Origin: Gammaproteobacteria bacterium
GTDB lineage: Bacteria; Pseudomonadota; Gammaproteobacteria; J044
DNA length: 14,539 bases
Reading direction: 5' to 3'
NCBI GenBank assembly: GCA_026995955.1
Contig: JALWNJ010000237.1
Span: 1-14,539 of the forward strand
Below are positions 505-13,063 of the stretch, piece by piece (the stretch's first letter is position 1; every line of letters starts with the position of its first letter). The notes under the pieces are model-generated. The model was not told the origin of the DNA, searched no databases, and saw only the letters and a list, made by a program, of their open reading frames with translations. The translations under genes and the position numbers were made by a program.

Positions 505-1113
505 ATGACGCAACCATCCACCCGCCTGCCCGCCGCAGAGCGCCGCCTGCTCACCGTGGACACGGTCATCGATCTTGCCGCCGAAGAGAGCCCGGATCGC
601 ATCACCACCGAGCAGATCGCCCAGCGCATGGGCATCACCCAGGGCGCCCTGTTCCGCCACTTCCCGAGCAAGGAGGCCATCTGGGAGGCGGTCATGGGGC
701 AGGTCGCCGAACGACTGCTGGAACGGGTGGAGCGCGCAGCGCGCGAGGCCGGCAACATCGGCGATGCCCTGCAGGCCATGTTCATGGCCCATGTGCGCTT
801 CGTGGCCGAGCACCCCGGCGTGCCGCGCATCCTGTTCGGCGAACTGCAGCGACCCGAGATGACGCCGGCCCGGCATGTGGCACGCATGCTGGTGCGCCAT
901 TACGGCGAGCACCTGCAGGGCCTGATCCGCAAGGGCCAGGAACGCGGCGAGCTGGCCGCGGACATCGCGCCCCAAGCCGCTGCCGCACTGTTCATTGGCA
1001 CCATACAGGGCCTGGTGATGCAAACGCTGCTCGAGGGCGACACCCGTGCCCTCCTGCAACGCGCCCCAACTGCCTTTGCCCTCCTTCGCCGTTGCCTGGA
1101 GGCCCCCACATGA
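505..1113 (+). CDS. TetR/AcrR-family transcriptional regulator
   Basis: The 202-residue product has the TetR N-terminal DNA-binding domain. Helices start around residue 14, and the helix-turn-helix covers about residues 33-53 (ITTEQIAQRMGITQGALFRH), followed by the usual F-P-S-K-E-A at 53-58. The C-terminal 140 residues are alpha-helical and would form the ligand and dimer domain; the ligand cannot be read from sequence. The ATG at 505 has GAGGT at 495-499 as ribosome site. The gene is first in an operon with an ABC exporter, and its TGA overlaps the ATG of the adaptor gene (ATGA at 1110-1113). The expected role is a local repressor relieved by a substrate of the exporter. The palindrome at 472-485 is its likely operator. 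Confidence 0.9.
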   Translation: MTQPSTRLPAAERRLLTVDTVIDLAAEESPDRITTEQIAQRMGITQGALFRHFPSKEAIWEAVMGQVAERLLERVERAAREAGNIGDALQAMFMAHVRFVAEHPGVPRILFGELQRPEMTPARHVARMLVRHYGEHLQGLIRKGQERGELAADIAPQAAAALFIGTIQGLVMQTLLEGDTRALLQRAPTAFALLRRCLEAPT

Positions 1114-2261
1114 GACTACCCCAACCCACCCGCCGTCTGTTCGGGATGCTGCTGGTCCTGATCCCGCTGGCCGCCCTGTTCGTGCTCGTGGCGCTGCGTA
1201 CCGGGCCGCTGGCCCCGGTTCCGGTCACCGTCGCCACGGTGGAAGCGCAGCCGGTACAACCGGCCCGCTACGGCATCGGCACCGTGGAGGCGCGCTTTCG
1301 CCACCGCATTGGCCCCACCCTGCCCGGCCGGGTGAAGCGGGTGGTCGTCGATGTCGGCGACCGGGTACGCGCCGGCCAGTTGCTTGCCGAAATGGACGAA
1401 GTGGATCTCGAGGCCCGCATCCGGGCAGCCCGGGCCGCGGCGCAGGCCGCCGAGGCACGCCTGAAGGAAACCGAGGCCCGTGTCGCCTTTGCCGCCACCG
1501 AACTCCGGCGCTACGAGCGCATGCTGGCCAGCCAGTCCACGAGCGAGGAATCGGTGGCCAATCGCCGGCTGGAATACGAGATTGCCCGCGCGACCCGGCT
1601 GGCCGCGCGCAGGGAGCACGAACGCGCCCGGGCCGAGCACGATGCGCTGTTGGCGCAGCGCGACCATCTGCGCCTGTTGGCGCCGGTGAACGGACTGGTC
1701 GTCAGCCGTCTGGCCGAGGCTGGGGATACGCTGGTGTCCGGTCAGCCGGTGGTCGAAGTCATCGACCCGCAACAACTGTGGATCGAGGCCCGCTTCGACC
1801 AGACCCATGCCGGCGGTCTGGCGGCCGGACAGCCGGCCCGGATCGTGCTGCGCTCGCGCCCGGACGGGCCGTTGCCGGGCAAGGTCTTGCGCGTGGAGCC
1901 ACTGGCGGATTCCGTCACCGAGGAGCTGCGCGCGCGTATCGTGTTCGACAGGCCACCCTCGCCGCTGCCCCCGCTCGGCGAGCTGGCCGAGGTTACCGTC
2001 GCCCTGCCCCCACGGCCTGCCGCGCCCACCGTGCCGAACGCCGCCCTGCAGTACCAGGCCGGGCGCATCGGCGTATGGCGCCTCGAGTCCGGCAGACCGG
2101 TGTTCACCCCGGTCCGCACCGGCGCATCGGACCTGGAAGGCCGGGTACAGATCAAGGCAGGGCTGAAGGTCGGTGACCGCATCGTGGTCTACAGCCGTGC
2201 ACCATTGCACGAGGGCAGCAGCGTGCGCATCGTCGACCGCATCCCGGGGGTGCCCCGGTGA
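1110..2261 (+). CDS. HlyD-family periplasmic adaptor of an ABC exporter
   Basis: The 383-residue membrane fusion protein would link an inner-membrane ABC transporter to an outer-membrane channel. A short cytoplasmic N-terminus is followed by a membrane anchor at about residues 10-29. The first half of the lipoyl domain is at about 70-98 (GRVKRVVVDVGDRVRAGQLL), then an Ala/Arg/Glu-rich coiled coil at about 98-187, the second lipoyl half at 188-220 (LLAPVNGLVVSRLAEAGD), and a beta-barrel region. The start is the ATG at 1110, overlapping the tetR stop and preceded by TGGAGG at 1097-1102. The same frame is open upstream to 477, but that stretch lies antiphase under tetR and is not protein-like. 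The partners follow directly, which indicates a DevB/MacA-type adaptor. No outer-membrane channel gene lies in this operon. Confidence 0.9.
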   Translation: MRLPQPTRRLFGMLLVLIPLAALFVLVALRTGPLAPVPVTVATVEAQPVQPARYGIGTVEARFRHRIGPTLPGRVKRVVVDVGDRVRAGQLLAEMDEVDLEARIRAARAAAQAAEARLKETEARVAFAATELRRYERMLASQSTSEESVANRRLEYEIARATRLAARREHERARAEHDALLAQRDHLRLLAPVNGLVVSRLAEAGDTLVSGQPVVEVIDPQQLWIEARFDQTHAGGLAAGQPARIVLRSRPDGPLPGKVLRVEPLADSVTEELRARIVFDRPPSPLPPLGELAEVTVALPPRPAAPTVPNAALQYQAGRIGVWRLESGRPVFTPVRTGASDLEGRVQIKAGLKVGDRIVVYSRAPLHEGSSVRIVDRIPGVPR

Positions 2262-3451
2262 TCAGCCTTGCCGGACGCGACATCCTGCATGGCTGGGGCA
2301 AGTTCCTGTTCACCGGCCTCGGCCTGGGCCTGCTGATCGGCGTGACGCTGACCATGGCCGGGGTGTACCGGGGCATGCTGGACGACGGCCGCATGCAGCT
2401 CGACAACAGCGGCGCCGATCTCTGGGTGGTGCAGAAGGACACGCTCGGCCCGTATGCCGAACCCTCCTCGCTGCCCGACGACAGCTGGCGTCGGCTGCGT
2501 ACCCTGCCCGGCGTGGCCCAGGCAGCGGGCATCACCTACCTGACGATGCAGGTGCAGAACGGGAAACGCACGGTGCGCACCATGGTGGTGGGCATCGCCC
2601 CGTACGGCCCGGGCACGCCGGGTTGGCCACGCCATCTGGTGGCCGGGCGACACATCACCCGTGGGCATTACGAGGCAGTGGCCGATCTGGGCACCGGCTT
2701 CCGGATCGGCGACCGGGTACGGCTGCGCCGGCACGAGTACACGGTAGTGGGGCTGTCGCGGCGCACGGTATCTTCCAATGGCGACCCGATGCTGTTCATT
2801 CCGCTCTCCGATGCCCAGCAGGCGCAGTTCCTGAAGGACAACGACGCCATTCTGGAACAGCGCCGGCGCATCGCCGCCAATCCGGTCCTGGGGCGCCCGA
2901 CGGTGGTGGATGCCGCCATCGAGAGCCAGACCAGTCCGCATTCCGTCAATGCCGTACTCTTGCGCCTTGCACCCGGAGCCCGCAGCGAAGAGATCGTGCA
3001 GACCATCGGCCGCTGGCAACGCTTCACCGCCTACGACCGCGATGCCATGGGCGACATCCTGATCGGCAAGCTGATCGCCACCGCCTCGCGGCAGATCGGC
3101 ATGTTTCTCGTCATCCTGGCCTTCGTCAGCGCCGCCATCGTGGCCTTCATCATCTACACCATGACCATGGACAAGATCCGCGAGATCGCGGTGCTCAAAC
3201 TGATCGGCACGCGCAATCGCACCATTGCGGGGATGATCCTGCAGCAGGCACTGGCGCTGGGATTGATCGGGTTCGTCGTCGGGCGCATCAGTGCCGGCCT
3301 GGCCACTCCGCTGTTTCCCAAGTTCGTACTGCTGATTCCGCTCGACTCGTTCATCGGGTTCTTCGCCGTGATGGCGATCTGCACCGTGGCAAGCCTCGCC
3401 TCCATCCGGCTCGCACTGCGGGTCGATCCGGCCGAGGCCATCGGAGGCTGA
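2258..3451 (+). CDS. ABC exporter permease, FtsX/DevC-MacB type
   Basis: The 397-residue protein has the architecture of MacB/DevC/LolC-type permeases. A first membrane helix at about 15-37 is followed by a periplasmic domain of about 240 residues (ADLWVV near its start), then three helices at about 281-301, 326-347 and 365-385. Between helices two and three, REIAVLKLIGTRNRTI (about 308-323) is the conserved cytoplasmic coupling segment that contacts the ATPase. The end, RVDPAEAIGG, is the typical FtsX-family terminus. The start is a GTG at 2258 overlapping the adaptor stop (GTGA). These exporters act mechanically on substrates taken from the periplasm or outer leaflet (lipids, lipoproteins, peptides, drugs). 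The size and single-domain organisation are closest to DevC. The substrate is not identifiable. Confidence 0.88.
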   Translation: MISLAGRDILHGWGKFLFTGLGLGLLIGVTLTMAGVYRGMLDDGRMQLDNSGADLWVVQKDTLGPYAEPSSLPDDSWRRLRTLPGVAQAAGITYLTMQVQNGKRTVRTMVVGIAPYGPGTPGWPRHLVAGRHITRGHYEAVADLGTGFRIGDRVRLRRHEYTVVGLSRRTVSSNGDPMLFIPLSDAQQAQFLKDNDAILEQRRRIAANPVLGRPTVVDAAIESQTSPHSVNAVLLRLAPGARSEEIVQTIGRWQRFTAYDRDAMGDILIGKLIATASRQIGMFLVILAFVSAAIVAFIIYTMTMDKIREIAVLKLIGTRNRTIAGMILQQALALGLIGFVVGRISAGLATPLFPKFVLLIPLDSFIGFFAVMAICTVASLASIRLALRVDPAEAIGG

Positions 3452-3452
3452 C

Positions 3453-4169
3453 ATGAACAAAAAGGGCATCGTCATCCGCGGACTGCGCAAGCGCTACGGT
3501 GAGGGCGAAACGGCCGTCGAGGCGCTGCGTGGCGTCGACATGCAGGTAGCCCCGGGCGAGGTGGTCGGTCTCGTCGGCCCCTCCGGCTCCGGCAAGAGCA
3601 CCCTGCTCAAGTGCCTGGGGGCGGTCATCGATCCCACGGCCGGGTACATGGAACTGGATGGAGAGGTCATCTTCGACGATGGCTGGAAGGTGCGCGATCT
3701 GCGCGCCCTGCGCCGCGACCGCATCGGCTTCGTGTTCCAGGCGCCGTATCTCATCCCCTTTCTCGACATCGTCGACAATGTGGCCCTGCCGCGCATGCTG
3801 GCCGGGGTCCCCAATGCAGAGGCCCGTGAAACGGCCCGGGAGCTGCTGCAGGCGCTGGACATGACGCACCGCATCGGTGCCATGCCGGCGCAGCTCTCCG
3901 GCGGCGAACAGCAGCGCGTGGCCATTGCCCGCGGCCTGGTCAATCATCCGCCGGTCATCCTCGCCGACGAACCGACGGCACCGCTGGATACGGCGCGGGC
4001 GATGGCCGTGATGCGCATCCTGCAGGACATGGCGCGACGCTTCCACACCGCCGTCATCGTGGTCACGCACGACGAGAAGATCATCCCCACCTTCCGCCGC
4101 ATCTACCACATCCGCGACGGCGTCACCCATGAGGAGGCCGGCGAGGGTCGGCCACTGGACGCGAGCTGA
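3453..4169 (+). CDS. ABC exporter ATP-binding subunit (DevA/MacB-N/LolD type)
   Basis: This 238-residue nucleotide-binding protein powers the permease encoded just upstream. All core motifs are visible: Walker A GPSGSGKST (42-50), Q-loop Gln96 in GFVFQ, signature LSGGEQQRVAIARG (148-161), Walker B VILADE (168-173) and switch His206 in VVTHD. The D-loop reads APLD rather than the more common (S/A)ALD/NLD, a small departure next to the catalytic glutamate. The ATG at 3453 lies one base after the permease stop, with GGAGG at 3443-3447. It is the last gene of the operon, and its stop lies 9 bases from the stop of the convergent DUF3240 gene. Confidence 0.93.
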   Translation: MNKKGIVIRGLRKRYGEGETAVEALRGVDMQVAPGEVVGLVGPSGSGKSTLLKCLGAVIDPTAGYMELDGEVIFDDGWKVRDLRALRRDRIGFVFQAPYLIPFLDIVDNVALPRMLAGVPNAEARETARELLQALDMTHRIGAMPAQLSGGEQQRVAIARGLVNHPPVILADEPTAPLDTARAMAVMRILQDMARRFHTAVIVVTHDEKIIPTFRRIYHIRDGVTHEEAGEGRPLDAS

Positions 4170-4178
4170 CCGGGCGGC

Positions 4179-4526
4179 TCAGTCCTGGGCCTGGTCGGCA
4201 CCAGGCAGCACGCTGCCACCGATACAGCCCTGGCGCAGAATGGGCAGCACGCGGAAGAAGACCGCCCCGCGCGAGAGGCGGGCGTCGATTTCCTGCAACA
4301 ACGGATCCACGCCCGCGGCCGCCAACTCGACCTCGATGCGCACCTTGTTCTGGGCGCCGGCAACCTGTTCCTGCGCCGTCAGCCGCTCGTCCGGCTGACC
4401 ATGACCGCGAATGAAGGAGACGGTAAAGAACAGGCCACTGCCGTGTGCCAGCAACAGATCGGAAAGAATGCGCGCCTGCGGCCGGGCGACGATGAGTTGC
4501 AGCAGGACATCGGACGGGACACTCAT
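4179..4526 (-). CDS. DUF3240 / PII-like small protein at the end of the metal efflux operon
   Basis: The 115-residue protein has no signal peptide or membrane segment. It reads as a small alternating beta/alpha protein: strand DVLLQLIVA (about 6-14), helix, strand GLFFTVSFIRGHG (30-42), an exposed loop with LTAQEQVAG (49-57), strand KVRIEVEL (61-68), helix, and a final strand AVFFRVLPIL. The GHG...T.QEQV.G pattern fits the DUF3240 family as I remember it. The fold order resembles PII/CutA-like proteins, and one PII-like group (PII-NG) is known to be encoded beside heavy-metal RND pumps. Its start overlaps the czcA stop (ATGA at 4526-4523), with GGAG upstream, so it is made with the pump. The likely role is a cytosolic sensor or modulator of pump or metal status, which is an inference. 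Confidence 0.72.
   Translation of the reverse strand: MSVPSDVLLQLIVARPQARILSDLLLAHGSGLFFTVSFIRGHGQPDERLTAQEQVAGAQNKVRIEVELAAAGVDPLLQEIDARLSRGAVFFRVLPILRQGCIGGSVLPGADQAQD
4189..4206. other. GC-rich hairpin at the convergent operon ends
   Basis: GCCTGGT-CGGC-ACCAGGC forms a 7-base-pair stem with a 4-base loop. It lies inside the last codons of the DUF3240 gene and 20 bases after the stop of the ABC ATPase gene. No T-tract follows on either strand, so it is not a canonical Rho-independent terminator. It could pause polymerase or block 3' decay between the two convergent operons, or be chance in GC-rich code. Confidence 0.3.
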
Positions 4527-7500
4527 GATGACATCTCCGGGGATTCGGCCCCGTCAGCCCCGTTGCGTCGCCGTTCCTCCAGCCCGGCGACGAACCGAAA
4601 GCCGATGGGCAACAGCAAAAGGGTAAGCGGCGTCGAGGTAAACAGGCCGCCGATGACCACGATGGCCAGCGGACGCTGGATCTCGGAGCCCGGCCCGGTG
4701 GCCAGTGCCAGCGGTACCAGACCGAGGGCCGCGATGCTCGCCGTCATGAGTACCGGCCGCAACCGCCTGCGGGCACCCTCCACCACCACGCGATGCAAGG
4801 GCATGCCACGCGCCAGCAGTTGATTGAACAGCGTCACCATCACCACTCCGTTCAGCACCGCGATGCCCAGCAGGGCGATGAAGCCCACCGAGGCCGGCAC
4901 CGACAGGTACTCTCCGCTGAGCCACAGGGCCACGATACCGCCGATCATGGCCAGTGGCACATTGAGCAGGATGAGCAGGGCCTGCGGCACCGAACGGAAG
5001 GAAGCAAACAGGATGACGAAGATCATCAGCAGCGCCACCGGCACGACGATGGACAGCCGTTTCGCGGCGCGCTGCTGGTTCTCGAAGGTGCCGCCCCAGG
5101 AGAAGTGATAGCCAAGCGGCAAATCCAGCGCACGGGCACGCTGCTGCACTTCCTCGACAAAACCCACCAGATCACGGTCGCGGACATTGGCCACCACCAC
5201 GGCAAACCGCTTGCCCATCTCGCGCTTCACCAGTACCGGGCCGCTCACCCGTTCCACCCGTACCAGCTGGCGCAGCGTCACGCTGCCGCCTTCCGGCAAC
5301 GGCAACGGCACTTCCAGGTTAAGAAAGCGCGGCGAGTCCGCGCCCAGCTCCGGCGCCCCGCGGATGAGCAGCGGGATGCGCCGGATGTCGCGGTACACGG
5401 TGCCCACCCGCAACCCCTCGAGCTGGGCACGCAGCAGATCCGCGATCCGCTCGACACTCAGACCCATGCGGCCAATGGCATCGCGATCCGGTGTGATGCG
5501 CAGGTAGCGGGAGCCCTCGTTGACGGGGGTACGCACATCCGTGGCACCCGGCACCTGTTCGATCAGGGCCACCAGTTCCTTGGCCAGCCGGTTCAGCTCG
5601 GCCGGGTCGTCGCCAAAGATCTTTACTGCCAGATCACCGCGTGCGCCGGTCAGCATCTCGTCCACCCGCATCTGGATGGGTTGGGTGAAGGCATAGTTGA
5701 TGCCGGGGAAGTCCCGCTCCAGCACGGCACGCATGGCGGCCACCAGCCCGGCCTTGTCGGCCATGCGCCACGCTTCGCGCGGCTTGAGGACCATGAACAT
5801 GTCGGTGTCGTTGAGCCCCATCGGGTCCATGCCCAGTTCATCGGAACCCACGCGTCCGACCATGCTCACGATCTCCGGCACCTGATCCAGCAGGGCCCGC
5901 TGGATGCGCAGATCGAGCGCCACCGAGGCTTCCAGACTAATGGCCGGCGACTTTTCCACCTGCAGGATGACATTGCCCTCGTCCATCTGCGGCATGAAAC
6001 TCTTGCCCACCAGGGCGTAGATGCCAACCGCACCGGCCATGGCCAGCAACGCACCACCCACCGCCAGCCTCGGGCGCGCCAAAGCATGGTCGAGCAGGGG
6101 GACATAGCGCGCCTGCAGCCAGCGAACCAGCCTCGATTCCTCGTGCCGGACGCGCCCCAGCAGCATCGAGGCCAGTGCCGGAATGACGGTCAGCGACAGC
6201 AGTACCGCGCTGGCCAATGCGAAAACGATGGTCAGAGCCACCGGCCGGAACAGCTTGCCCTCCAATCCCTCCAGGCTGAGCAACGGCAGGAACACGATGA
6301 TGATGATGCCAATGCCCGAGATCACCGGCAGCGCCACCTCCTGGGTGGCGCGGTACACCAGGTGCAGGCGCGGCAGCCGGGAATCGCCGCGCTGCAGGTG
6401 GGTGACGATGTTCTCCACCACCACCACGGCCGCATCCACCAGCATGCCCAGGGCGATCACCAGCCCCCCCAGCGACATGAGGTTGGCCGTCATGCCATAG
6501 AGGCGCATCAGGATGCAGGTCAGCAGGATGGCGAGCGGCAGGATGAGCGCCACGGTGATGGCCGCGCGCAGATTGCCCAGGAAGGCCAGCAACAGCAGCA
6601 GCACCAGCACCACCGCCTCGATCAGGGCCCGATTCACTGTCCAGGTGGCACGGTTCACCAGCTCGCTGCGATCGTAGAACACCTGCAGGTGCATGCCCTC
6701 GGGAAGCGTGCGTTCCAGCGCATCCAGTCTTTCGCGCACGCCACGGATGACCTCTCGCGCATTGGCGCCCTTGAGCGCGATGACCAGCCCCTGCACCGCT
6801 TCGCCCTTGCCATCGCGTGTCACCGCCCCGTAGCGCGCCAGCGAGGCCACCTCGACCCGCGCCACATCGGCCACGCGTATGGGCACACCGTCACGCACCG
6901 CCACCACGGTACGACCGATGTCGTCCGTGCCTGAGTAGTTTCCGGTGGTGCGGACCAGCAGCACCTCCTCGCCCTCGGTAAGGCGGCCGGCGCCATCGTT
7001 GCGATTGTTGTCCTCAAGCGCAGCACGCAACTGCTCGAAATCGATGTCGTGGGCGGCCATGCGCGCCAGATCGGGACGCACCGCAAACACCCGCACGAAA
7101 CCGCCCAGCGCATTGACATCGGCCACGCCCGGCACCGACCTCAGGGCAGGGCGAATCACCCAGTCGAGCAGGTCGCGCTTCTCCATCAGGCTCAGCGCAT
7201 CGCCCTCGATGGTGAACATGAAGACATCACCGAGCGGCGTACTGATGGGAGCCAGCCCTCCAACCACGCCTTCCGGCAGCGTCACCTGCGCCAGTCTTTC
7301 GTTTACCTGCTGGCGGGCCCAGTAGATGTCGGTACCCTCGGCAAAGTCGATGGTGATGTCCGCGATGCCGTACTTGCCCATGGAACGCATCATGGTCTCG
7401 CCGGGGATGCCCAACAGCTCCATCTCGAGCGGCGCAATAACGCGGCTCTCGACCTCGGCGGGGGTCATGCCCGGGGCCTTGAAGATGAGCTTTACCTGGG

Positions 7501-7633
7501 TGGGCGATACATCAGGGAAGGCATCGACGGGCGTTTCCATCAGCGCCCGATACCCGGCGCCAAGGATGCCGAACACCAGCATCAGCACCAACAGGCGCTG
7601 AGCCAGAAAGAACTGGATCCAGCGATCGATCAT
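4523..7633 (-). CDS. czcA: Heavy-metal efflux RND permease, CzcA/CusA family
   Basis: The 1036-residue protein is a full-length heavy-metal RND antiporter subunit, which uses proton influx to drive metal ions out through a CzcCBA tripartite complex. A first membrane helix (about 12-30) is followed by the PVDAFPDVSPTQVKL segment typical of HME pumps. A large periplasmic domain, a helix block (about 335-490), a second periplasmic domain (about 545-850) and a final helix block follow. TM4 reads IALGMLVDAAVVVVEN with Asp400 and Glu407. The first acidic residue of CzcA's DFG motif is Ala394 here, as in CusA. The three CusA copper-ligand methionines appear to be replaced (Gln558, Asp609, Glu659), which points to a divalent ion rather than Cu(I)/Ag(I). 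The start overlaps the czcB stop (ATGA). I cannot assign Zn, Co, Cd or Ni specifically. Confidence 0.92.
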   Translation of the reverse strand: MIDRWIQFFLAQRLLVLMLVFGILGAGYRALMETPVDAFPDVSPTQVKLIFKAPGMTPAEVESRVIAPLEMELLGIPGETMMRSMGKYGIADITIDFAEGTDIYWARQQVNERLAQVTLPEGVVGGLAPISTPLGDVFMFTIEGDALSLMEKRDLLDWVIRPALRSVPGVADVNALGGFVRVFAVRPDLARMAAHDIDFEQLRAALEDNNRNDGAGRLTEGEEVLLVRTTGNYSGTDDIGRTVVAVRDGVPIRVADVARVEVASLARYGAVTRDGKGEAVQGLVIALKGANAREVIRGVRERLDALERTLPEGMHLQVFYDRSELVNRATWTVNRALIEAVVLVLLLLLAFLGNLRAAITVALILPLAILLTCILMRLYGMTANLMSLGGLVIALGMLVDAAVVVVENIVTHLQRGDSRLPRLHLVYRATQEVALPVISGIGIIIIVFLPLLSLEGLEGKLFRPVALTIVFALASAVLLSLTVIPALASMLLGRVRHEESRLVRWLQARYVPLLDHALARPRLAVGGALLAMAGAVGIYALVGKSFMPQMDEGNVILQVEKSPAISLEASVALDLRIQRALLDQVPEIVSMVGRVGSDELGMDPMGLNDTDMFMVLKPREAWRMADKAGLVAAMRAVLERDFPGINYAFTQPIQMRVDEMLTGARGDLAVKIFGDDPAELNRLAKELVALIEQVPGATDVRTPVNEGSRYLRITPDRDAIGRMGLSVERIADLLRAQLEGLRVGTVYRDIRRIPLLIRGAPELGADSPRFLNLEVPLPLPEGGSVTLRQLVRVERVSGPVLVKREMGKRFAVVVANVRDRDLVGFVEEVQQRARALDLPLGYHFSWGGTFENQQRAAKRLSIVVPVALLMIFVILFASFRSVPQALLILLNVPLAMIGGIVALWLSGEYLSVPASVGFIALLGIAVLNGVVMVTLFNQLLARGMPLHRVVVEGARRRLRPVLMTASIAALGLVPLALATGPGSEIQRPLAIVVIGGLFTSTPLTLLLLPIGFRFVAGLEERRRNGADGAESPEMSS

Positions 7634-8748
7634 TCCTCACCACCCTCGAGCATGGGCTTGAGATACACCGCACCGCGTGTCAAGAGCTGCATACCGTCAG
7701 CATCGTCCAGATTGCCGGTGGGGCGCACCACCACCCGCTCGGCATCGCGCGCCAGCACCTCGACGGGGATCGGTTCGGCGCCCTGTGGGGTACGGCGAAA
7801 CACGGTGGGAACGCCATCGACCTCGACCAGTCCGGCTGCCGGCAGGCGCCAGGCACCCCGGCCCTTGGCTTGCCCGGCGAGAAAGCGCACCCGAACCAGC
7901 TCACCCGCCAGCAGGCTTCCGTCGGCATTGTCGAATCGGGCATGCACGGACACCCTGAGCGTGCGCGGATCTACCGAGCGCCCGATCCACGCGATCTCGC
8001 CCCGCCGTCCCTGCTGATCCAGCACCACGCCCTGTCCGGGTTCGAGGCGCCGGGCCACGGCCGCAGGCACCGGAATGTGCACGGCGATCCAGGCGGTGTC
8101 GGACACCACCGACAGCCGCTCACCCCGCTGCACCCGCCGTCCGGGGACCGTATCCATGGGGGCCAGGAAGCCGTCACGCGGCGCCCGCAGACGCACCATT
8201 CCATTGAGGTCACGGCGCTTCTCGAGATCGGTGAGCTCTGCCTCCGTCATGCCGGCAAAGACCAGCCTGCCACGCTGCGCGCCGGCCCGGTCGCCGAGCA
8301 CGGTGTAGCGCTGCTCCGCTTGCAGAAACTTCTTGCGCGACAGGCTTCCCGCCTTGTAGAGACGGCGGGCACGCCGGTATTCCTCCTGCGCCGGCTTCAG
8401 CTCGGCCAGGGTCGCCAGCCAGTCCTGCTGCAGCTGCCTGAGTTCATCGCTCTCCAGTATCAGCAGCACCTCGCCGGTCCGTACGGGACCGTGCAGATGC
8501 TGCACTGTACGCACACGCCCGGCCACCGGTGCCACGACCTCGGCCCGATGTACGGGCGGGAGCTTCACACGACCGGACCAGGCTGGCCCGGGAACTTCCC
8601 GAATCCGTTCGGGCACGGCAAATGCCAGCCCCATGGCTTCGATCTGCCGTGCATCGAGCGGCAGCTCCACGGCCTGGGCCGGAAACATGACGCTACCGAG
8701 GCCGGCAGAGAGTGCCAGCACCGGCAGGAGAGTCGCAAATCGTTTCAT
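7630..8748 (-). CDS. czcB: RND metal efflux adaptor, CzcB-like membrane fusion protein
   Basis: This 372-residue periplasmic adaptor joins the CzcA-like pump to the CzcC-like channel. The start at 8748 gives a clear signal peptide, MKRFATLLPVLALSAG, ending AQA at 24-26. The open frame runs a further 72 codons upstream, but that stretch is antiphase to czcC and lacks signal character. After the signal come a beta region, a lipoyl half (VVAPVAGRVRTVQ...GEVLLILES), an Arg/Glu/Ala-rich helical hairpin, the second lipoyl half (RLRAPRDGFLAPMDTVPGRRV) and beta-barrel and proximal domains. The protein is shorter than classical CzcB proteins and has no His-rich N-terminal metal-binding extension. Its start overlaps the czcC stop (ATGA at 8748-8745), with GGGGA just upstream. 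Confidence 0.88.
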   Translation of the reverse strand: MKRFATLLPVLALSAGLGSVMFPAQAVELPLDARQIEAMGLAFAVPERIREVPGPAWSGRVKLPPVHRAEVVAPVAGRVRTVQHLHGPVRTGEVLLILESDELRQLQQDWLATLAELKPAQEEYRRARRLYKAGSLSRKKFLQAEQRYTVLGDRAGAQRGRLVFAGMTEAELTDLEKRRDLNGMVRLRAPRDGFLAPMDTVPGRRVQRGERLSVVSDTAWIAVHIPVPAAVARRLEPGQGVVLDQQGRRGEIAWIGRSVDPRTLRVSVHARFDNADGSLLAGELVRVRFLAGQAKGRGAWRLPAAGLVEVDGVPTVFRRTPQGAEPIPVEVLARDAERVVVRPTGNLDDADGMQLLTRGAVYLKPMLEGGEE

Positions 8749-9998
8749 GGCAGAATCCCCACAGCCTGTTGGAACGCATGGATACGCCGTGACAAGCCAG
8801 CCCGGACGAGGCCAAGCTGAAGGCGTGCGTCGTTTTCCTGTTGTTGCACGATGAGCAGTTCCTGCAGGCCGATCTCGCCGGCCTTCCAGGACTGCACGGA
8901 CAGTGCCAGTGCCTTGCGCGCCGCCTGATACTGATCGCGGGCCAATGGCAGCAGGGCCTGCCACCGCTGCAGGGCCTCGCGTGCCTCCACGAGCCGCTGA
9001 CGCAGTTCGCGGTCGGTGGTCGCCAGCTCTGCTTCCCGTTCACGACGGTCACGGTCACGCTCGGCCCGCGCTCGCTGGTATTCCGGGTTGTCCCCCAGCG
9101 GCACGCGCAACTCCAGCAACAGCGCGGTATCACTGGGGCCACCGGGTAACGCATCGTGCCTGGACCCTACGAACAGTTCGGTGCTGCTGCGTTGCGACCA
9201 GAGATCGATGGCACCGCGCGCAAGTGCCACCGCCCCACGCTGTTCCACCCACCGGTGATGCGGATGCTCAGCAAGCTGAAGCGGGGCATCGACACGGGTC
9301 GGCACCGGCGGCGTGGCCAGTGCAGCCAAGGCCGGTTCGTCGACATCGATGCCCCACAGCCGCGCCACCTCAATGGCCTGACGCAAGGCTCCCTCCGCCT
9401 CCACCACCCGACGCCGGGCCTGACTCAGATTGCGCTCTGCCAGCAGCAGATCGAGACGGCTGGCATCTCCAGCCTCCACCTGCGTCTTCACCACATCGAA
9501 GAGGCGTTGCGACTGCCGCTGCGCCTCGCGGGCATGGTCGCGCCGGGTGCGGCGCTCCAGCAGGTCGTCGTACAGGCTTCTGGCAATGCCGGCAGCCTGC
9601 CAATACAGCCAGTCGGCATGGGCACGCTCCAGCTCCGGATAGCGGGCAACCAGCTCGGAAAACACCTGTTTCTGCCGCAAGACCTTGAGCGGCAGATCCA
9701 CGCCCCCTTCCCAGGTCACGAGTCCCTGGCTGTCCGACAGGCGGTAGTTCTCGTGGCGCAGGCTCACACCGAGATTGCCCAGTACATTGGCACCTGCATC
9801 CCGTGTCTCGCGTGCCAGCTCGGCATAGCCCTGCAACAGTTTGCGTTCCGGCTGGCGTTCGAGTACGCGACGGGTCCAGTCCACCACCAGAGGCGCATCG
9901 ACGCCTGTCGTCGCTAGAGCCATTTTCTGGCCTGCCGCCATCCCGACCAGCGGCAACCAGGCGGCCAGGAGGATTGCGGTCACCGGTTTGCGTTTCAT
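8745..9998 (-). CDS. czcC: Outer membrane efflux channel, CzcC/TolC family
   Basis: The 417-residue product begins with the signal peptide MKRKPVTAILLAAWLPLVGM (cleavage near residues 21-22) and continues as a mostly helical protein. It has the long Arg/Glu/Ala/Gln-rich coiled coils and duplicated plan of TolC-like channels, with GDASRLDLLLAERNLSQARR in the first repeat and GEIGLQELLIVQQQENDAR in the second. These G(D/E)...L..LL.....L segments are diagnostic of the family. No lipobox cysteine is seen. The start at 9998 overlaps the stop of the cytochrome gene (ATGA) and has GGAAGGG upstream. The longer open frame to 10439 lies antiphase under the cytochrome gene and is rejected. It would form the outer-membrane exit of the pump and could in principle also serve the ABC exporter, which lacks a channel gene. 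Confidence 0.87.
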   Translation of the reverse strand: MKRKPVTAILLAAWLPLVGMAAGQKMALATTGVDAPLVVDWTRRVLERQPERKLLQGYAELARETRDAGANVLGNLGVSLRHENYRLSDSQGLVTWEGGVDLPLKVLRQKQVFSELVARYPELERAHADWLYWQAAGIARSLYDDLLERRTRRDHAREAQRQSQRLFDVVKTQVEAGDASRLDLLLAERNLSQARRRVVEAEGALRQAIEVARLWGIDVDEPALAALATPPVPTRVDAPLQLAEHPHHRWVEQRGAVALARGAIDLWSQRSSTELFVGSRHDALPGGPSDTALLLELRVPLGDNPEYQRARAERDRDRREREAELATTDRELRQRLVEAREALQRWQALLPLARDQYQAARKALALSVQSWKAGEIGLQELLIVQQQENDARLQLGLVRAGLSRRIHAFQQAVGILP

Positions 9999-10549
9999 GA
10001 CCCGGCCCTTCCATTGCAGCTCCGTGCCCTTTTGCGGCCGGTGACCATGGCCCGCACCAGGTTCTCGCCCTCCAGAACGCTCATGAGCAATACACCCGCA
10101 ATGTGCAGACCCACGAGCATCAACGCCAGGTTTGCCAGCAGCTCGTGCAGTGCCTCGAACAGCTCGCTGCCGCCGAAAGCGTCCGCCAACAGGCCGCTGG
10201 CCACCACCAGGGCCAGCACGGTCAGCAGCATCACCACCATGGCTCCACCGGCGGGATTGTGGCCATCGTAGTGCTGTGCCCTGCCCTGCAGCAGCGCCAG
10301 CAGATGCGCCTTTACCGCAGAGGGCCCGCGCACGAAATCGGCAAAGCGGGCATGGCGTGGTCCAACCACGCCCCACAGCAACCGAAAGAACAGCAGAGCG
10401 GCCATGGAATACCCTGCCAGCCGGTGCAGATCCATCCATTCGTCCCCTGTCAGCCAGGCCAGCGCAAAGACCAGCACCAGCGACCAGTGGAACAGGCGCA
10501 GCAGAGGGTCCCAGACCCGGATCTCCTCAGTGCAGGAACCGTTGTGCAT
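9995..10549 (-). CDS. Membrane b-type cytochrome (Ni/Fe-hydrogenase cytochrome b / cytochrome b561 family)
   Basis: The 184-residue four-helix membrane protein has the family N-terminus (E)IRVWDPLLRLFHW and the internal GPRHARFADFVRGP and HNPAGGAMVV segments. Candidate heme ligands are His21 and His42 (helices one and two) and His135 and His149 (helix four region), the usual two-heme arrangement for quinol/cytochrome electron transfer. The start chosen is the ATG at 10549, which has GGGGGA a few bases upstream. The alternative ATG at 10591 lies upstream of the predicted -10 and is unlikely to be on the mRNA. It is the first gene of the czcCBA operon and its stop overlaps the czcC start. The redox partner is not encoded here. 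A PepSY protein is encoded divergently, and the two families often occur together. Confidence 0.87.
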   Translation of the reverse strand: MHNGSCTEEIRVWDPLLRLFHWSLVLVFALAWLTGDEWMDLHRLAGYSMAALLFFRLLWGVVGPRHARFADFVRGPSAVKAHLLALLQGRAQHYDGHNPAGGAMVVMLLTVLALVVASGLLADAFGGSELFEALHELLANLALMLVGLHIAGVLLMSVLEGENLVRAMVTGRKRARSCNGRAGS

Positions 10550-10581
10550 GCGATTTCCCCCATCTTTCACAGCGTGCATGC

Positions 10582-10613
10582 ACCATAGCAACCTACCCTG
10601 AAATCAAGCTGAA
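10582..10613 (-). promoter_or_regulatory. Response-regulator-dependent promoter of the cytochrome b-czcCBA operon
   Basis: Reading leftward, TTCAG (10613-10609), six bases, TTCAG (10602-10598), ten bases, then TATGGT (10587-10582). The direct half-sites repeat every 11 bases, the spacing bound by tandem OmpR-family dimers. No -35 consensus is seen where one is expected, and the second half-site occupies that area, typical of an activated promoter. Transcription would begin near 10575, leaving a leader of about 26 bases before the ATG at 10549. Confidence 0.6.
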
Positions 10614-10630
10614 AATCGGCGTTGCCTCCG

Positions 10631-10662
10631 TTCAGCTTTGTTTCAGGCACAACGGTTAGAAT
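10631..10662 (+). promoter_or_regulatory. Response-regulator-dependent promoter of the PepSY-regulator-kinase operon
   Basis: Reading rightward, TTCAG (10631-10635), six bases, TTCAG (10642-10646), ten bases, then TAGAAT (10657-10662), five of six matches to the -10 consensus. It is the mirror image of the leftward site, with identical spacing; the two 17-base arms (10597-10613 and 10631-10647) match at 15 of 17 positions. Transcription would begin near 10669. It suggests positive autoregulation of the two-component operon. Confidence 0.62.
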
Positions 10663-10692
10663 GAACGGAAAAATCCCGTGGAGTCCCTGGCC

Positions 10693-10746
10693 ATGCCCAG
10701 CGAAACCCATGACCATTGCCGGCAACCTGGCCGCAGAACACAATGA
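10693..10746 (+). CDS. Possible 17-codon leader ORF coupled to the PepSY gene
   Basis: An ATG at 10693, with GGAG at 10680-10683 (9 bases upstream), opens a 17-codon frame, MPSETHDHCRQPGRRTQ. Its TGA (10744-10746) overlaps the ATG of the PepSY gene as ATGA. It lies wholly within the predicted transcript, which starts near 10669. The PepSY ATG has no good ribosome site of its own, so re-initiation after this ORF would explain its translation. The HDHC cluster could bind metal, but the peptide is too short to classify. It may be chance; the overlap style matches the neighbouring operon. Confidence 0.4.
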   Translation: MPSETHDHCRQPGRRTQ

Positions 10747-11126
10747 AATACCGTAGCCTGCTGCTGCTCGTCCTCGCCCTGGCGCTGCTGGTCGGCGCAT
10801 GGCTGCTGGCGCGCGAGCAGTGGCAGGTCTACCATCGGGTCACCATCGACGATACGCACCCGACCCTGGCGGACGAACCCCGCTCCGGCCCACTGCCGCT
10901 GAACGAGCTGCTGGCCCGGCTGACACTGCCCGCAGACACCCGTATCGTCGAAATCGAACAGGAACCGGAACACGGCGCATTCGTCTACGAAATCGAAGTG
11001 CTGGAACCGGATGGCCGGGTGCGCGAACTCTTGGTGGACGCCCGCAGTGGCCGCATCCTGGGTGAGGAGCACCCCGATCAGGAAACGGAGGAACGGCATC
11101 ATGCGCCTGTTGCTGGCGGAAGATGA
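10743..11126 (+). CDS. Membrane-anchored PepSY-domain protein
   Basis: The 127-residue protein has one N-terminal membrane segment (about 3-23, YRSLLLLVLALALLVGAWLL) and then a periplasmic part. The PepSY-type core is at about 60-103: an L.E...R helix (LNELLARL), IVEIEQEPEHGAFVYEIEVL, then DGRVRELLVDARSGRIL. The last strand pair and the DARSG turn are typical of PepSY. The start is the ATG at 10743; an upstream in-frame TTG at 10716 has no support. The gene overlaps the response regulator by 26 bases. PepSY proteins beside two-component systems are often regulated by metal or envelope signals and may modulate the sensor or a protease. A direct role as signal-binding accessory to the adjacent kinase is an inference. 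Confidence 0.8.
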   Translation: MKYRSLLLLVLALALLVGAWLLAREQWQVYHRVTIDDTHPTLADEPRSGPLPLNELLARLTLPADTRIVEIEQEPEHGAFVYEIEVLEPDGRVRELLVDARSGRILGEEHPDQETEERHHAPVAGGR

Positions 11127-11760
11127 CCCCGACCTGGTGGACGACCTGCTTCCCCTGCTGCGGCGGGCCGGATTCGCCGTCGATGTAGCCAGCGACGGCC
11201 ATGAAGCCCAGCACCTTGGAGAGACGATTCCCTTTGATGCCGTGATCCTGGACCTTGGCCTGCCGCTGCGTTCCGGACTGGAAGCCCTCGAGCACTGGCG
11301 CGCCCATGGCCAAAGCATGCCGGTACTCATCCTCACGGCGCGCGACAGCTGGCAGGACAAGGTATCGGGGCTCAGGGCCGGTGCCGACGACTACCTCACC
11401 AAACCCTTTCACCCCGAGGAGCTGCTGGCCCGGCTACAGGCCCTGATCCGGCGTGCTCACGGGCGCGTCGAGCCCGTTCTGCGGGCCGGCTCGCTGGAGC
11501 TCGATGAGACCCGCCAGGCCATCCGCATGCATAATGGCAAGTGGCAGGAGCTTACCGGCACCGAGTTCCGCCTGTTGCGTACCTTCATGCTCAACCCGGG
11601 CCGGCTGCTGTCCAAGTCCCAGTTGGTGGAGCATGTCTACGACCAGGACTTCGATCGCGACAGCAACCTCATCGAAGTCTATGTACGCCGGCTCCGCGAC
11701 AAGATCGGGCGTGATCGCATCGAAACCCGCCGCGGACAGGGCTATGTCTTCCACGAGTGA
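11101..11760 (+). CDS. OmpR-family response regulator, QseB/PmrA-like
   Basis: The 219-residue DNA-binding regulator has a receiver domain (1 to about 115) with the acidic pair Asp8/Asp9, phospho-acceptor Asp51 (VILDLGLP), switch Thr79 (LILTARD) and Lys101 (YLTKPF). A winged-helix domain (about 125-219) follows, with LTGTEFRLLRTFM, the recognition-helix stretch SNLIEVYVRRLRDKI and the closing RRGQGYVF. The ATG at 11101 has GGAGGA at 11085-11090; the frame is open upstream to 11011 only because of overlap with the PepSY gene. It ends 17 bases inside the kinase gene. The TTCAG-N6-TTCAG sites upstream of the operon have the PmrA/QseB-type half-site spacing, so this is the natural candidate to bind them. 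Confidence 0.95.
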   Translation: MRLLLAEDDPDLVDDLLPLLRRAGFAVDVASDGHEAQHLGETIPFDAVILDLGLPLRSGLEALEHWRAHGQSMPVLILTARDSWQDKVSGLRAGADDYLTKPFHPEELLARLQALIRRAHGRVEPVLRAGSLELDETRQAIRMHNGKWQELTGTEFRLLRTFMLNPGRLLSKSQLVEHVYDQDFDRDSNLIEVYVRRLRDKIGRDRIETRRGQGYVFHE

Positions 11761-13063
11761 CCGTCCCCGCTCGCTGGAACGCCAGCTCGGGCTGACCCTG
11801 GGGCTTCTGCTGGCACTTGTCCTGAGCATCCTGCTCGGCCTGTCCGCCTGGCTGGCTCGGGAAACCGCCCTTCAGTTCGCGCTCAGTCGGCTGGAGCACG
11901 ATGCCGAAGCGATGCTCGGCGCCATCGATCTCGAACAGCACAGGCTGGATCAACCCATGCCACCCATCTACCGGCAACCCCTGTCCGGGCACTACTACAC
12001 CCTGCGTTTTCCCGACGGACAGGAACTCAAGTCGCGCTCACAATGGAACCTGCGCCTGCTCATCCCGCATCCTGAACACCCACACGGCAGCTGGTGGCTG
12101 GAAGACGGCCCGCAGGCACAGCAACTTCTGGTGTGGCAGGGCCGTTTCCGAAAGAACGGGCAGGAACTCCTGCTCGTCGTTGCCGAAGATGTAGCCCCGC
12201 TGCTGACCGCCATCCGCGGCTATCTGTGGGCCGGAGTCCTCGCTGCCCTGTCCGCGGTTCTGCTCGTCCTTGCGCTGCAACGCGCCATCCTGCGCCGTGC
12301 CTTCGCCCGACTCGACAGAACGCGCCGGGAAATCCGTCAGGTTCGTGAGGGTCGCCTGCAGCGGCTCGGTACCGAAGTGCCAGCCGAAGTGCGCCCCCTG
12401 GTCGAAGAGTTCAACCACCTGCTCGAAGCCTGGCGCGAACACCAGGCCCGCTCTCGAAACGCCGTGGGCAATCTGGCCCACGCCCTCAAGACACCGCTGC
12501 AACTCATCCTGCGCCAAGCCGAGACCAGCGGAGACAGCCAACTGCAGGCAGCAGCCAGCCGCATGCAGCACCGGCTGGAGCAGGAGCTGCGACGGGCACG
12601 CATCATCGGGCCAGCCGGCGCGGGACAACACTTCCGGCCTCATGACGATGGTCGTGACCTCGTCGACACCATCCAAACCCTCTACCGTGACCGGGCACTG
12701 CAGATCGATGTGGACATCAGGACCCCGGACACCCTCCCCTTTGAACAAACCGACCTGATCGAACTGCTTGGCAACCTGCTCGACAATGCCGCAAAGTGGG
12801 CCCGGCACCGCATCCGGCTGACCCTTGAACTCGATCAGGGCTGCCTGCACATCACCATCGACGACGACGGCCCCGGCATTCCGCCGCAGGAACGCGATCA
12901 GATCCTCGCGCGCGGTCACCGCCTCGACGAAAACCGCCCCGGCCACGGCCTTGGCCTGGCCATTGCCAGCGAAATCACTGCCTGCTACCACGGCCAGCTG
13001 CAACTCGAACAGGCCCCGGAACTCGGTGGCCTGCGCGTCAGCATCGAGCTGCCGCTGCCCTGA
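11744..13063 (+). CDS. Sensor histidine kinase, PhoQ-like HisKA type
   Basis: The 439-residue inner-membrane kinase has TM1 at about 15-37, a periplasmic sensor of about 115 residues (about 40-155) and TM2 at about 160-178. A short HAMP-like linker (to about 235) and a dimerisation helix follow, with phospho-acceptor His246 in NLAHALKTPL, the PhoQ-style H-box. The ATPase domain carries the N-box with Asn344 and Asn348 (LLGNLLDNAAKWA), G1 DDDGPGIP (373-380) and G2 GHGLGLAI (400-407). The start at 11744 lies inside the response regulator gene, with GGACAGGG upstream. The sensor domain has several aromatic residues (HYYTLRFPDG, SWWLEDG) but no obvious metal-binding cluster of Cys or closely spaced Met; His109, His112 and His114 (PHPEHPHG) are the only candidate. 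The signal is inferred to be metal or redox from the target operon. Confidence 0.93.
   Translation: MSSTSDRPRSLERQLGLTLGLLLALVLSILLGLSAWLARETALQFALSRLEHDAEAMLGAIDLEQHRLDQPMPPIYRQPLSGHYYTLRFPDGQELKSRSQWNLRLLIPHPEHPHGSWWLEDGPQAQQLLVWQGRFRKNGQELLLVVAEDVAPLLTAIRGYLWAGVLAALSAVLLVLALQRAILRRAFARLDRTRREIRQVREGRLQRLGTEVPAEVRPLVEEFNHLLEAWREHQARSRNAVGNLAHALKTPLQLILRQAETSGDSQLQAAASRMQHRLEQELRRARIIGPAGAGQHFRPHDDGRDLVDTIQTLYRDRALQIDVDIRTPDTLPFEQTDLIELLGNLLDNAAKWARHRIRLTLELDQGCLHITIDDDGPGIPPQERDQILARGHRLDENRPGHGLGLAIASEITACYHGQLQLEQAPELGGLRVSIELPLP

Follow-up and report, generated by a model that had tools for sequence, protein, structure and literature searches.

How might two operons that diverge from one intergenic gap, the first encoding a sensory system and the second a cytochrome and a metal-efflux pump, be controlled together? 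This question is raised by a gammaproteobacterial stretch of 14,539 nucleotides, which is referred to here as the window. The features on which the analysis rests are listed in Table 1.

Table 1. Genes and candidate regulatory elements of the window
Feature	Coordinates	Strand	Basis
RND permease, CusA/CzcA family, heavy metal	4523..7633	-	NCBIfam TIGR00914, 1019.2 bits, above the cut-off of 701.45
RND periplasmic adaptor, CusB/CzcB-like	7630..8748	-	Pfam HlyD_D23, 2.7e-22; start by eye
Outer-membrane efflux protein, TolC-like (OMF)	8745..9998	-	Pfam OEP, 1.6e-15; start by eye
Cytochrome b561 (CytB), first leftward gene	9995..10549	-	Pfam PF01292, 3.6e-25; GGGGGA ahead of ATG by eye
Leftward -10-like hexamer, TATGGT	10582..10587	-	Exactly N10 past the leftward operator; offset 10 strongly preferred in gammaproteobacterial relatives
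Leftward tandem operator (candidate), TTCAG-CTTGAT-TTCAG	10598..10613	-	Sequence and genome pattern scan; read from 10613 down to 10598
Rightward tandem operator (candidate), TTCAG-CTTTGT-TTCAG	10631..10646	+	Sequence and genome pattern scan
Rightward -10-like hexamer, TAGAAT	10657..10662	+	Exactly N10 past the rightward operator; offset 10 favored in gammaproteobacterial relatives
Small PepSY protein (Orf1 position), first rightward gene	10743..11126	+	Pfam PepSY, 8.4e-10
Response regulator of the OmpR family (putative reader of the two operators)	11101..11760	+	Response_reg and Trans_reg_C
SK1-kind sensor kinase	11744..13063	+	HATPase_c; SK1 signature SGHYYT and KSRSQWN (periplasmic); start by eye

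Two tandem sites in the gap

The intergenic gap (10550-10742, 193 bp) carries two TTCAG-N6-TTCAG sites arranged back to back between the divergent genes. The initial annotation had described them as mirror-facing TTCAG-N6-TTCAG-N10-TAnnnT sites, and in the sequence read both are exact; its count for the two arms (10597-10613 and 10631-10647), which are identical at 15 of 17 positions as an inverted repeat, was likewise reproduced. The consensus built from 58 full sites, the window's own two included, opens with the same 16 bases as the left arm of the window, TTCAGCTTGATTTCAG. Transcription starts predicted from the -10 hexamers fall at about 10575 (minus) and 10669 (plus), which are about 25 and 75 bases (by eye) from the first ATGs at 10549 and 10743. 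Also noted, at 10691-10744 and preceded by GGAG, was a frame of 17 codons whose end is the ATGA with which the PepSY gene begins. Short frames of 21 and 16 codons with the same ATGA overlap are present in the relatives L149 and L150; set beside that of the window, they have H or C near the start with no clear sequence likeness, and they may be chance.

The genome from which the window comes (2,147,691 bases in 443 contigs, 86% complete) contains exact TTCAG-N6-TTCAG four times, two of them in the gap, and the backwards control once. Relaxed to TTCA-N7-TTCA-N11-TAnnnT, the full pattern has two matches, both in the gap, and its backwards control has none. A genome scan for TTCAG-N6-TTCAG-N10-TAnnnT, which the initial annotation had suggested, matches only the window's two sites in 2.15 Mb. 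None of 200 dinucleotide shuffles of the window contains a match, and among 200,000 first-order Markov versions of the gap, 10 have at least one full site and none has one on each strand. The bare tandem repeat with up to two mismatches is not enriched in the window relative to the shuffles (7 found, 6.67 expected); the information therefore sits in the exact form together with the -10. A plain sigma-70 promoter scan of 10300-10900 found none, which fits an operator that replaces the -35 hexamer.

Genes of the two operons

The leftward operon runs in the order CytB, OMF, adaptor, and RND permease. The adaptor scores 91.7 bits against NCBIfam RND_mfp, slightly below the cut-off of 94.9. No SHP or diheme cytochrome c gene was found in this operon of the window, in which CytB is followed directly by the OMF, adaptor, and RND genes. 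A separate efflux-like operon at 505-4169, read from the translations, comprises a TetR-like regulator, an adaptor, an ABC permease, and an ATPase.

Kinship of the regulator with PmrA, as initially proposed, was not borne out. The PmrA equivalog is its best NCBIfam match, yet the score of 190.9 bits lies below the cut-off of 330, on which ground PmrA was rejected as its family. The score against the CusR/CopR heavy-metal subfamily TIGR01387 (166 bits) is also below the cut-off (279.2). The regulator is FeuP/SK1-like rather than PmrA-like, its kin in the literature being FeuP, compared through its published motif, and the RR of the Orf1/RR/SK1 module. Per residue, its best match is a receiver chain in the PDB that bears the name CarR (149 bits over 121 residues). 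Vibrio CarR was rejected, as the motif reported for V. vulnificus CarR, GACA-N6-TACA (PMC10433830), differs; the CarR of the PDB chain may be that of another organism. UzcR of Caulobacter, which was considered for the metal response, was rejected as well, since its published motif, CATTAC-N6-TTAA (PMC8963506), differs.

Conservation in relatives

Relatives were drawn from the class and from named genomes because the family and order of the source genome offer three genomes only, with CytB found in one of the three. From the named genomes, the best 80 of 558 relatives of the regulator were kept; these, with the window (L085) and three loci from its own and a same-family genome (L086, L088, and L089), form an 84-locus set. 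Seventy-eight of the best 80 (L007-L084) are mostly labeled Alphaproteobacteria, with a few vaguer or doubtful labels. The class search covered 369 gammaproteobacterial genomes and gave 117 regulator matches in 112 genomes at E <= 1e-65. Wider stretches were fetched for the top 80 class matches besides the window and the same-family genome G002, and for G002 itself; the remaining 35 were left out. Those 80, G002 (L116), and a Sedimenticola locus (L005) make up 82 gammaproteobacterial loci, L006 having been dropped as a duplicate of L162. The window is outside the 82, yet its two sites count among the 58 full sites. The rows in all locus counts are related species and not independent.

In the 84-locus set (best 80 of 558 plus four), TTCA-N7-TTCA is found 80 times in the 58 kb that directly precede the regulator, whereas the other 745 kb contain it 24 times. 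Other periods between 6 and 19 give one to five upstream repeats; period 11 alone is raised. Within 700 bp upstream and on the strand of the regulator, the repeat is present in 74 of the 78 mostly alphaproteobacterial loci (among the best 80 of 558). Of the four loci lacking it, one (L013) carries a pair at a greater distance upstream, and in another (L046) the upstream sequence extends for only 332 bp. The 75 sites in these 78 loci comprise 45 distinct 16-mers, so that many of the loci are close relatives. These sites have no strict N10 hexamer, TAnnnT lying at offset 10 in 2, at 11 in 6, and at 15 in 6 of the 75.

The gammaproteobacterial loci differ in this geometry. The initial annotation had proposed to look for the half-sites in relatives and had singled out the identical N10 distance on both sides, and both recur here: among 109 TTCA-N7-TTCA sites in the 82 loci, TAnnnT lies exactly 10 bases on in 56, whereas the remaining offsets between 0 and 33 have 0 to 7 sites each, with the 7 falling at offset 21, a repeat unit beyond. 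Other repeat periods (6-19) give 22 to 83 repeats in the same loci, with 0 or 1 having TAnnnT at 10. The exact full site is found anywhere in the fetched stretch in 45 of the 82 loci and is absent from 37; within 3.2 kb upstream of the regulator it is found in 41 (36 with one site, 5 with two) and absent from the other 41. With a leave-one-out matrix run on 2.2 kb upstream, 58 of the 82 loci beat the best of 82 reversed-sequence controls and 24 fail, although the matrix is shaped by the choice of sites with TAnnnT at N10, against which the reversed control guards only partly.

At least one full site is present in 69 of the 112 genomes with the regulator (134 matches, 12 reversed-pattern controls) and in 83 of the 257 genomes without a close regulator (125 matches, 64 reversed controls); the difference is significant (Fisher p = 1.9e-7), the split itself depending on the E <= 1e-65 cut-off. 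The excess of sites in the genomes without a close regulator reflects either more distant members of the family or a use of the motif by others, which speaks against an exclusive reading.

Target genes and operon layouts

Within 700 bp on their strand, the 58 full sites are followed first by CytB in 36 cases, by OMF in 7, and by PepSY in 5, with no assigned gene in 10. The window's OMF finds a match in seven gammaproteobacterial loci, and in every one of them a full site precedes the matching gene by less than 400 bp. Upstream of the regulator, CytB is on the same strand in 49 of the 82 loci and on the opposite strand in 5; in 28 it was not found. In the two closest relatives (76 and 71% identity), CytB and PepSY are also divergent, with full sites on both strands. 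The locus of G002 is entirely co-directional; its PepSY-regulator-kinase genes are preceded by one full site, and a second lies after the kinase and before the OMF-adaptor-RND genes. This locus and the target counts indicate that each operon can own a site, the back-to-back form of the window being one layout of several. With respect to the placement of sites, the proposal that both operons are targeted thus agrees with the relatives, in which sites precede both the cytochrome/PepSY/two-component and the efflux operons. The 71%-identical relative L150 carries DUF1924, which we take to be SHP, and diheme cytochrome (DHC) genes after CytB.

Comparison with known systems

TTCA-N7-TTCA is Motif 3, the candidate FeuP binding site of Sinorhizobium meliloti, which is found upstream of 12 genes, five of them known to be FeuP dependent, and also at six of nine other FeuP-dependent genes (PMC3616915). 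The tetramers and the spacing are identical to those of the window, which shares with 74 of the 78 mostly alphaproteobacterial loci (among the best 80 of 558) the position of the motif upstream of the regulator's own operon. The sites analyzed here differ from the published FeuP motif in a fifth base that is mostly G, a spacer consensus of their own (CTTGAT), and the -10 at N10, and instead of ndvA the predicted target is an operon for a cytochrome and metal efflux. FeuN is described as a periplasmic modulator of FeuQ (PMC12714254). The Ensifer locus L078 holds a relative of the regulator, and its small upstream protein has no Pfam match.

The second system is the Orf1/RR/SK1 module of SHP operons, whose kinase is marked by SGVYWQ and RSRSLWD variants and for which a divergent promoter in Rhodospirillaceae and CzcABC neighbors in Allochromatium vinosum are described (PMC2909971). 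The window has the same three genes, a kinase with the SK1 signature (SGHYYT and KSRSQWN), and a cytochrome b partner, and it combines divergent operons, as in Rhodospirillaceae, with efflux genes, as in A. vinosum; the small PepSY gene sits just before the regulator, as the small periplasmic Orf1 does, and was equated with it by position and context. Among 159 kinases in the loci (the window and one duplicate included), SGxY[WY] occurs within one mismatch in 149, SRSxW in 90, and both in 89. Between CytB and the efflux genes, the window differs from the SHP operons in carrying neither SHP nor a diheme cytochrome. The excerpted account of those operons proposes a divergent promoter and names no operator (PMC2909971).

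The initial annotation had also recognized an 11-base period of the OmpR family, and this period is shared by the published PmrA and BqsR sites. BqsR, the ferrous-iron regulator of Pseudomonas aeruginosa, has the operator TTAAG-N6-TTAAG with the downstream pentamer over the -35; its spacer of 6 bp is required, and additional pentamers are of benefit (PMC4682146). The window shares with it the pentamer pair and the 6-bp spacer and, by analogy, would share the site over the -35 and the activating role; BqsR differs in its TTAAG half-site and in serving a ferrous-iron system. The PmrA/BasR box, TTTAAG-N5-TTTAAG, is another tandem of 11-bp period, with TTTAAG in place of TTCAG (PMC10927774). Upstream of four relatives (L172, L184, L193, and L218), one half-site is TTAAG instead of TTCAG, bridging to the PmrA/BqsR-type boxes. 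Upstream of CytB in L150 (about -540 to -503 from the regulator), four TTCAG stand in a row in 11-bp steps before a -10, resembling the extra-pentamer clusters of BqsR.

Proposed mechanism

It is probable that each TTCAG-N6-TTCAG serves as an operator of the regulator encoded at 11101-11760, acting on its own promoter, so that both operons are induced jointly. The SK1-type kinase would phosphorylate the adjacent regulator, and a phosphorylated dimer would bind head to tail to two half-sites one helical turn apart. The half-site pair would occupy the -35 region, 10 bp before the -10, and the regulator would recruit RNA polymerase in place of a -35 element. The rightward copy would then fire the PepSY-regulator-kinase operon (positive autoregulation) and the leftward copy the cytochrome b561-TolC-adaptor-CusA/CzcA operon; a single periplasmic signal, perhaps metal or redox stress, would raise the sensor and effector operons together. 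The sites themselves, their conservation, their geometry, and their linkage to the regulator are observed directly. We infer that the regulator binds them, that it activates rather than represses, that the two sites act independently, and what the signal may be. The 37 of 82 gammaproteobacterial loci that have no exact full site and the lack of a strict N10 in the mostly alphaproteobacterial sites are points against this reading.

Alternative readings of the sites

The mirror arrangement could mean that the two sites form one composite dyad operator, in which dimers on the two arms touch across the gap, whose length of 17 bp would be important for firing that is coordinated or mutually exclusive. 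The 15/17 inverted match of the arms would agree with this, but such identity follows from both copies fitting one consensus. Opposite-strand TTCA-N7-TTCA pairs within 300 bp (161 loci) are back to back in eight cases and face to face in one (256, L186). The back-to-back gaps are 17 bp in the window, 18 in L013, and 18 in L149, and these three near-equal values in distant organisms may be meaningful; the other five are 35 (L150), 47 (L026), 51 (L019), 64 (L186), and 242 bp (L075). The 35 bp of L150 were counted from the nearest of its four tandem TTCAG, its full site being 57 bp away. In L149, the near minus-strand repeat lacks TAnnnT at N10 and the full site of that strand lies at a distance of 241 bp, which tells against the dyad, as do the 36 of 41 gammaproteobacterial loci with an upstream full site that have just one and the two co-directional sites of G002. 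The gap of 17-18 bp shared by three of eight back-to-back pairs is not predicted by independent sites and shifts some weight from independent operators to a composite dyad; the latter is nevertheless improbable. Mirror symmetry as a required dyad is unlikely because of the five unlike gaps and the co-directional layout, so that the mirror-symmetric pair of the initial annotation holds as an exact description of the window and is doubtful as a required feature. L013 belongs to Rhodospirillaceae, far from the window, and its back-to-back pair (2478-2527) lies between two divergent cytochrome b genes.

A different OmpR-family regulator of the same cell might read the sites instead of the adjacent one, or both might do so. 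A 48%-identical paralogue exists (G000:C302:9558-10214), and 1.4 kb ahead of it lies a third TTCAG-N6-TTCAG (L117, 8172-8236, contig C302 of the source genome) with TATCCT at N11, about 50 bases ahead of the ATG (by eye) of a His-rich, apparently secreted protein. The full sites in genomes without a close regulator point the same way; other regulators may read the motif, or many of these sites may be chance. The repeats, however, cluster upstream of relatives of this regulator and not across the fetched stretches at large, and we judge a different reader unlikely. It is also conceivable that the sites repress, the regulator blocking both promoters until it is dephosphorylated or released; polymerase can be either blocked or recruited by a protein bound over the -35 region. 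Neither site has a consensus -35/-10 promoter, which implies promoters that are weak without an activator, and both BqsR, with the same pentamer spacing and its downstream pentamer over the -35 (PMC4682146), and FeuP (PMC3616915) are activators, which makes repression very unlikely. A chance repeat would accord with the shuffle-level frequency of two-mismatch bare repeats, but the initial view that the equal N10 distances are hard to explain by chance is strengthened by the simulations, in which no gap has one full site on each strand, and by the conservation of the pattern and its N10 in relatives, and coincidence is hardly credible. The preferred reading thus remains that of two operators of the adjacent regulator.

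Implications for the sensor family

Novelty is modest in that the motif and the module are each already known; new here are the link between motif and module, the strict N10 geometry, and the fused cytochrome-pump operon. The rhizobial candidate FeuP motif and the sensor module of SHP operons are thereby tied together, and the Orf1/RR/SK1 module gains a predicted operator with strict promoter geometry in gammaproteobacteria. In a wider reading, to which we give about even chances, TTCA-N7-TTCA as an operator would go back to the ancestor of the entire Orf1(PepSY)/RR/SK1 family of Alpha- and Gammaproteobacteria, FeuNPQ being one of its branches, and in gammaproteobacteria it would be fused to the promoter at a fixed N10. 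Such a family would link electron transfer by periplasmic cytochromes with the efflux of metals; the window would represent a compact cytochrome and pump operon, and the 17-18-bp gap may be a preferred divergent geometry. With a predicted operator of strict geometry, the regulons of the module become listable from sequence, and the signal can be sought through the targets, namely, cytochromes and metal pumps. For the organism itself, the arrangement of the gap suggests that one sensor may switch on its own operon together with the neighboring cytochrome and metal-pump operon.
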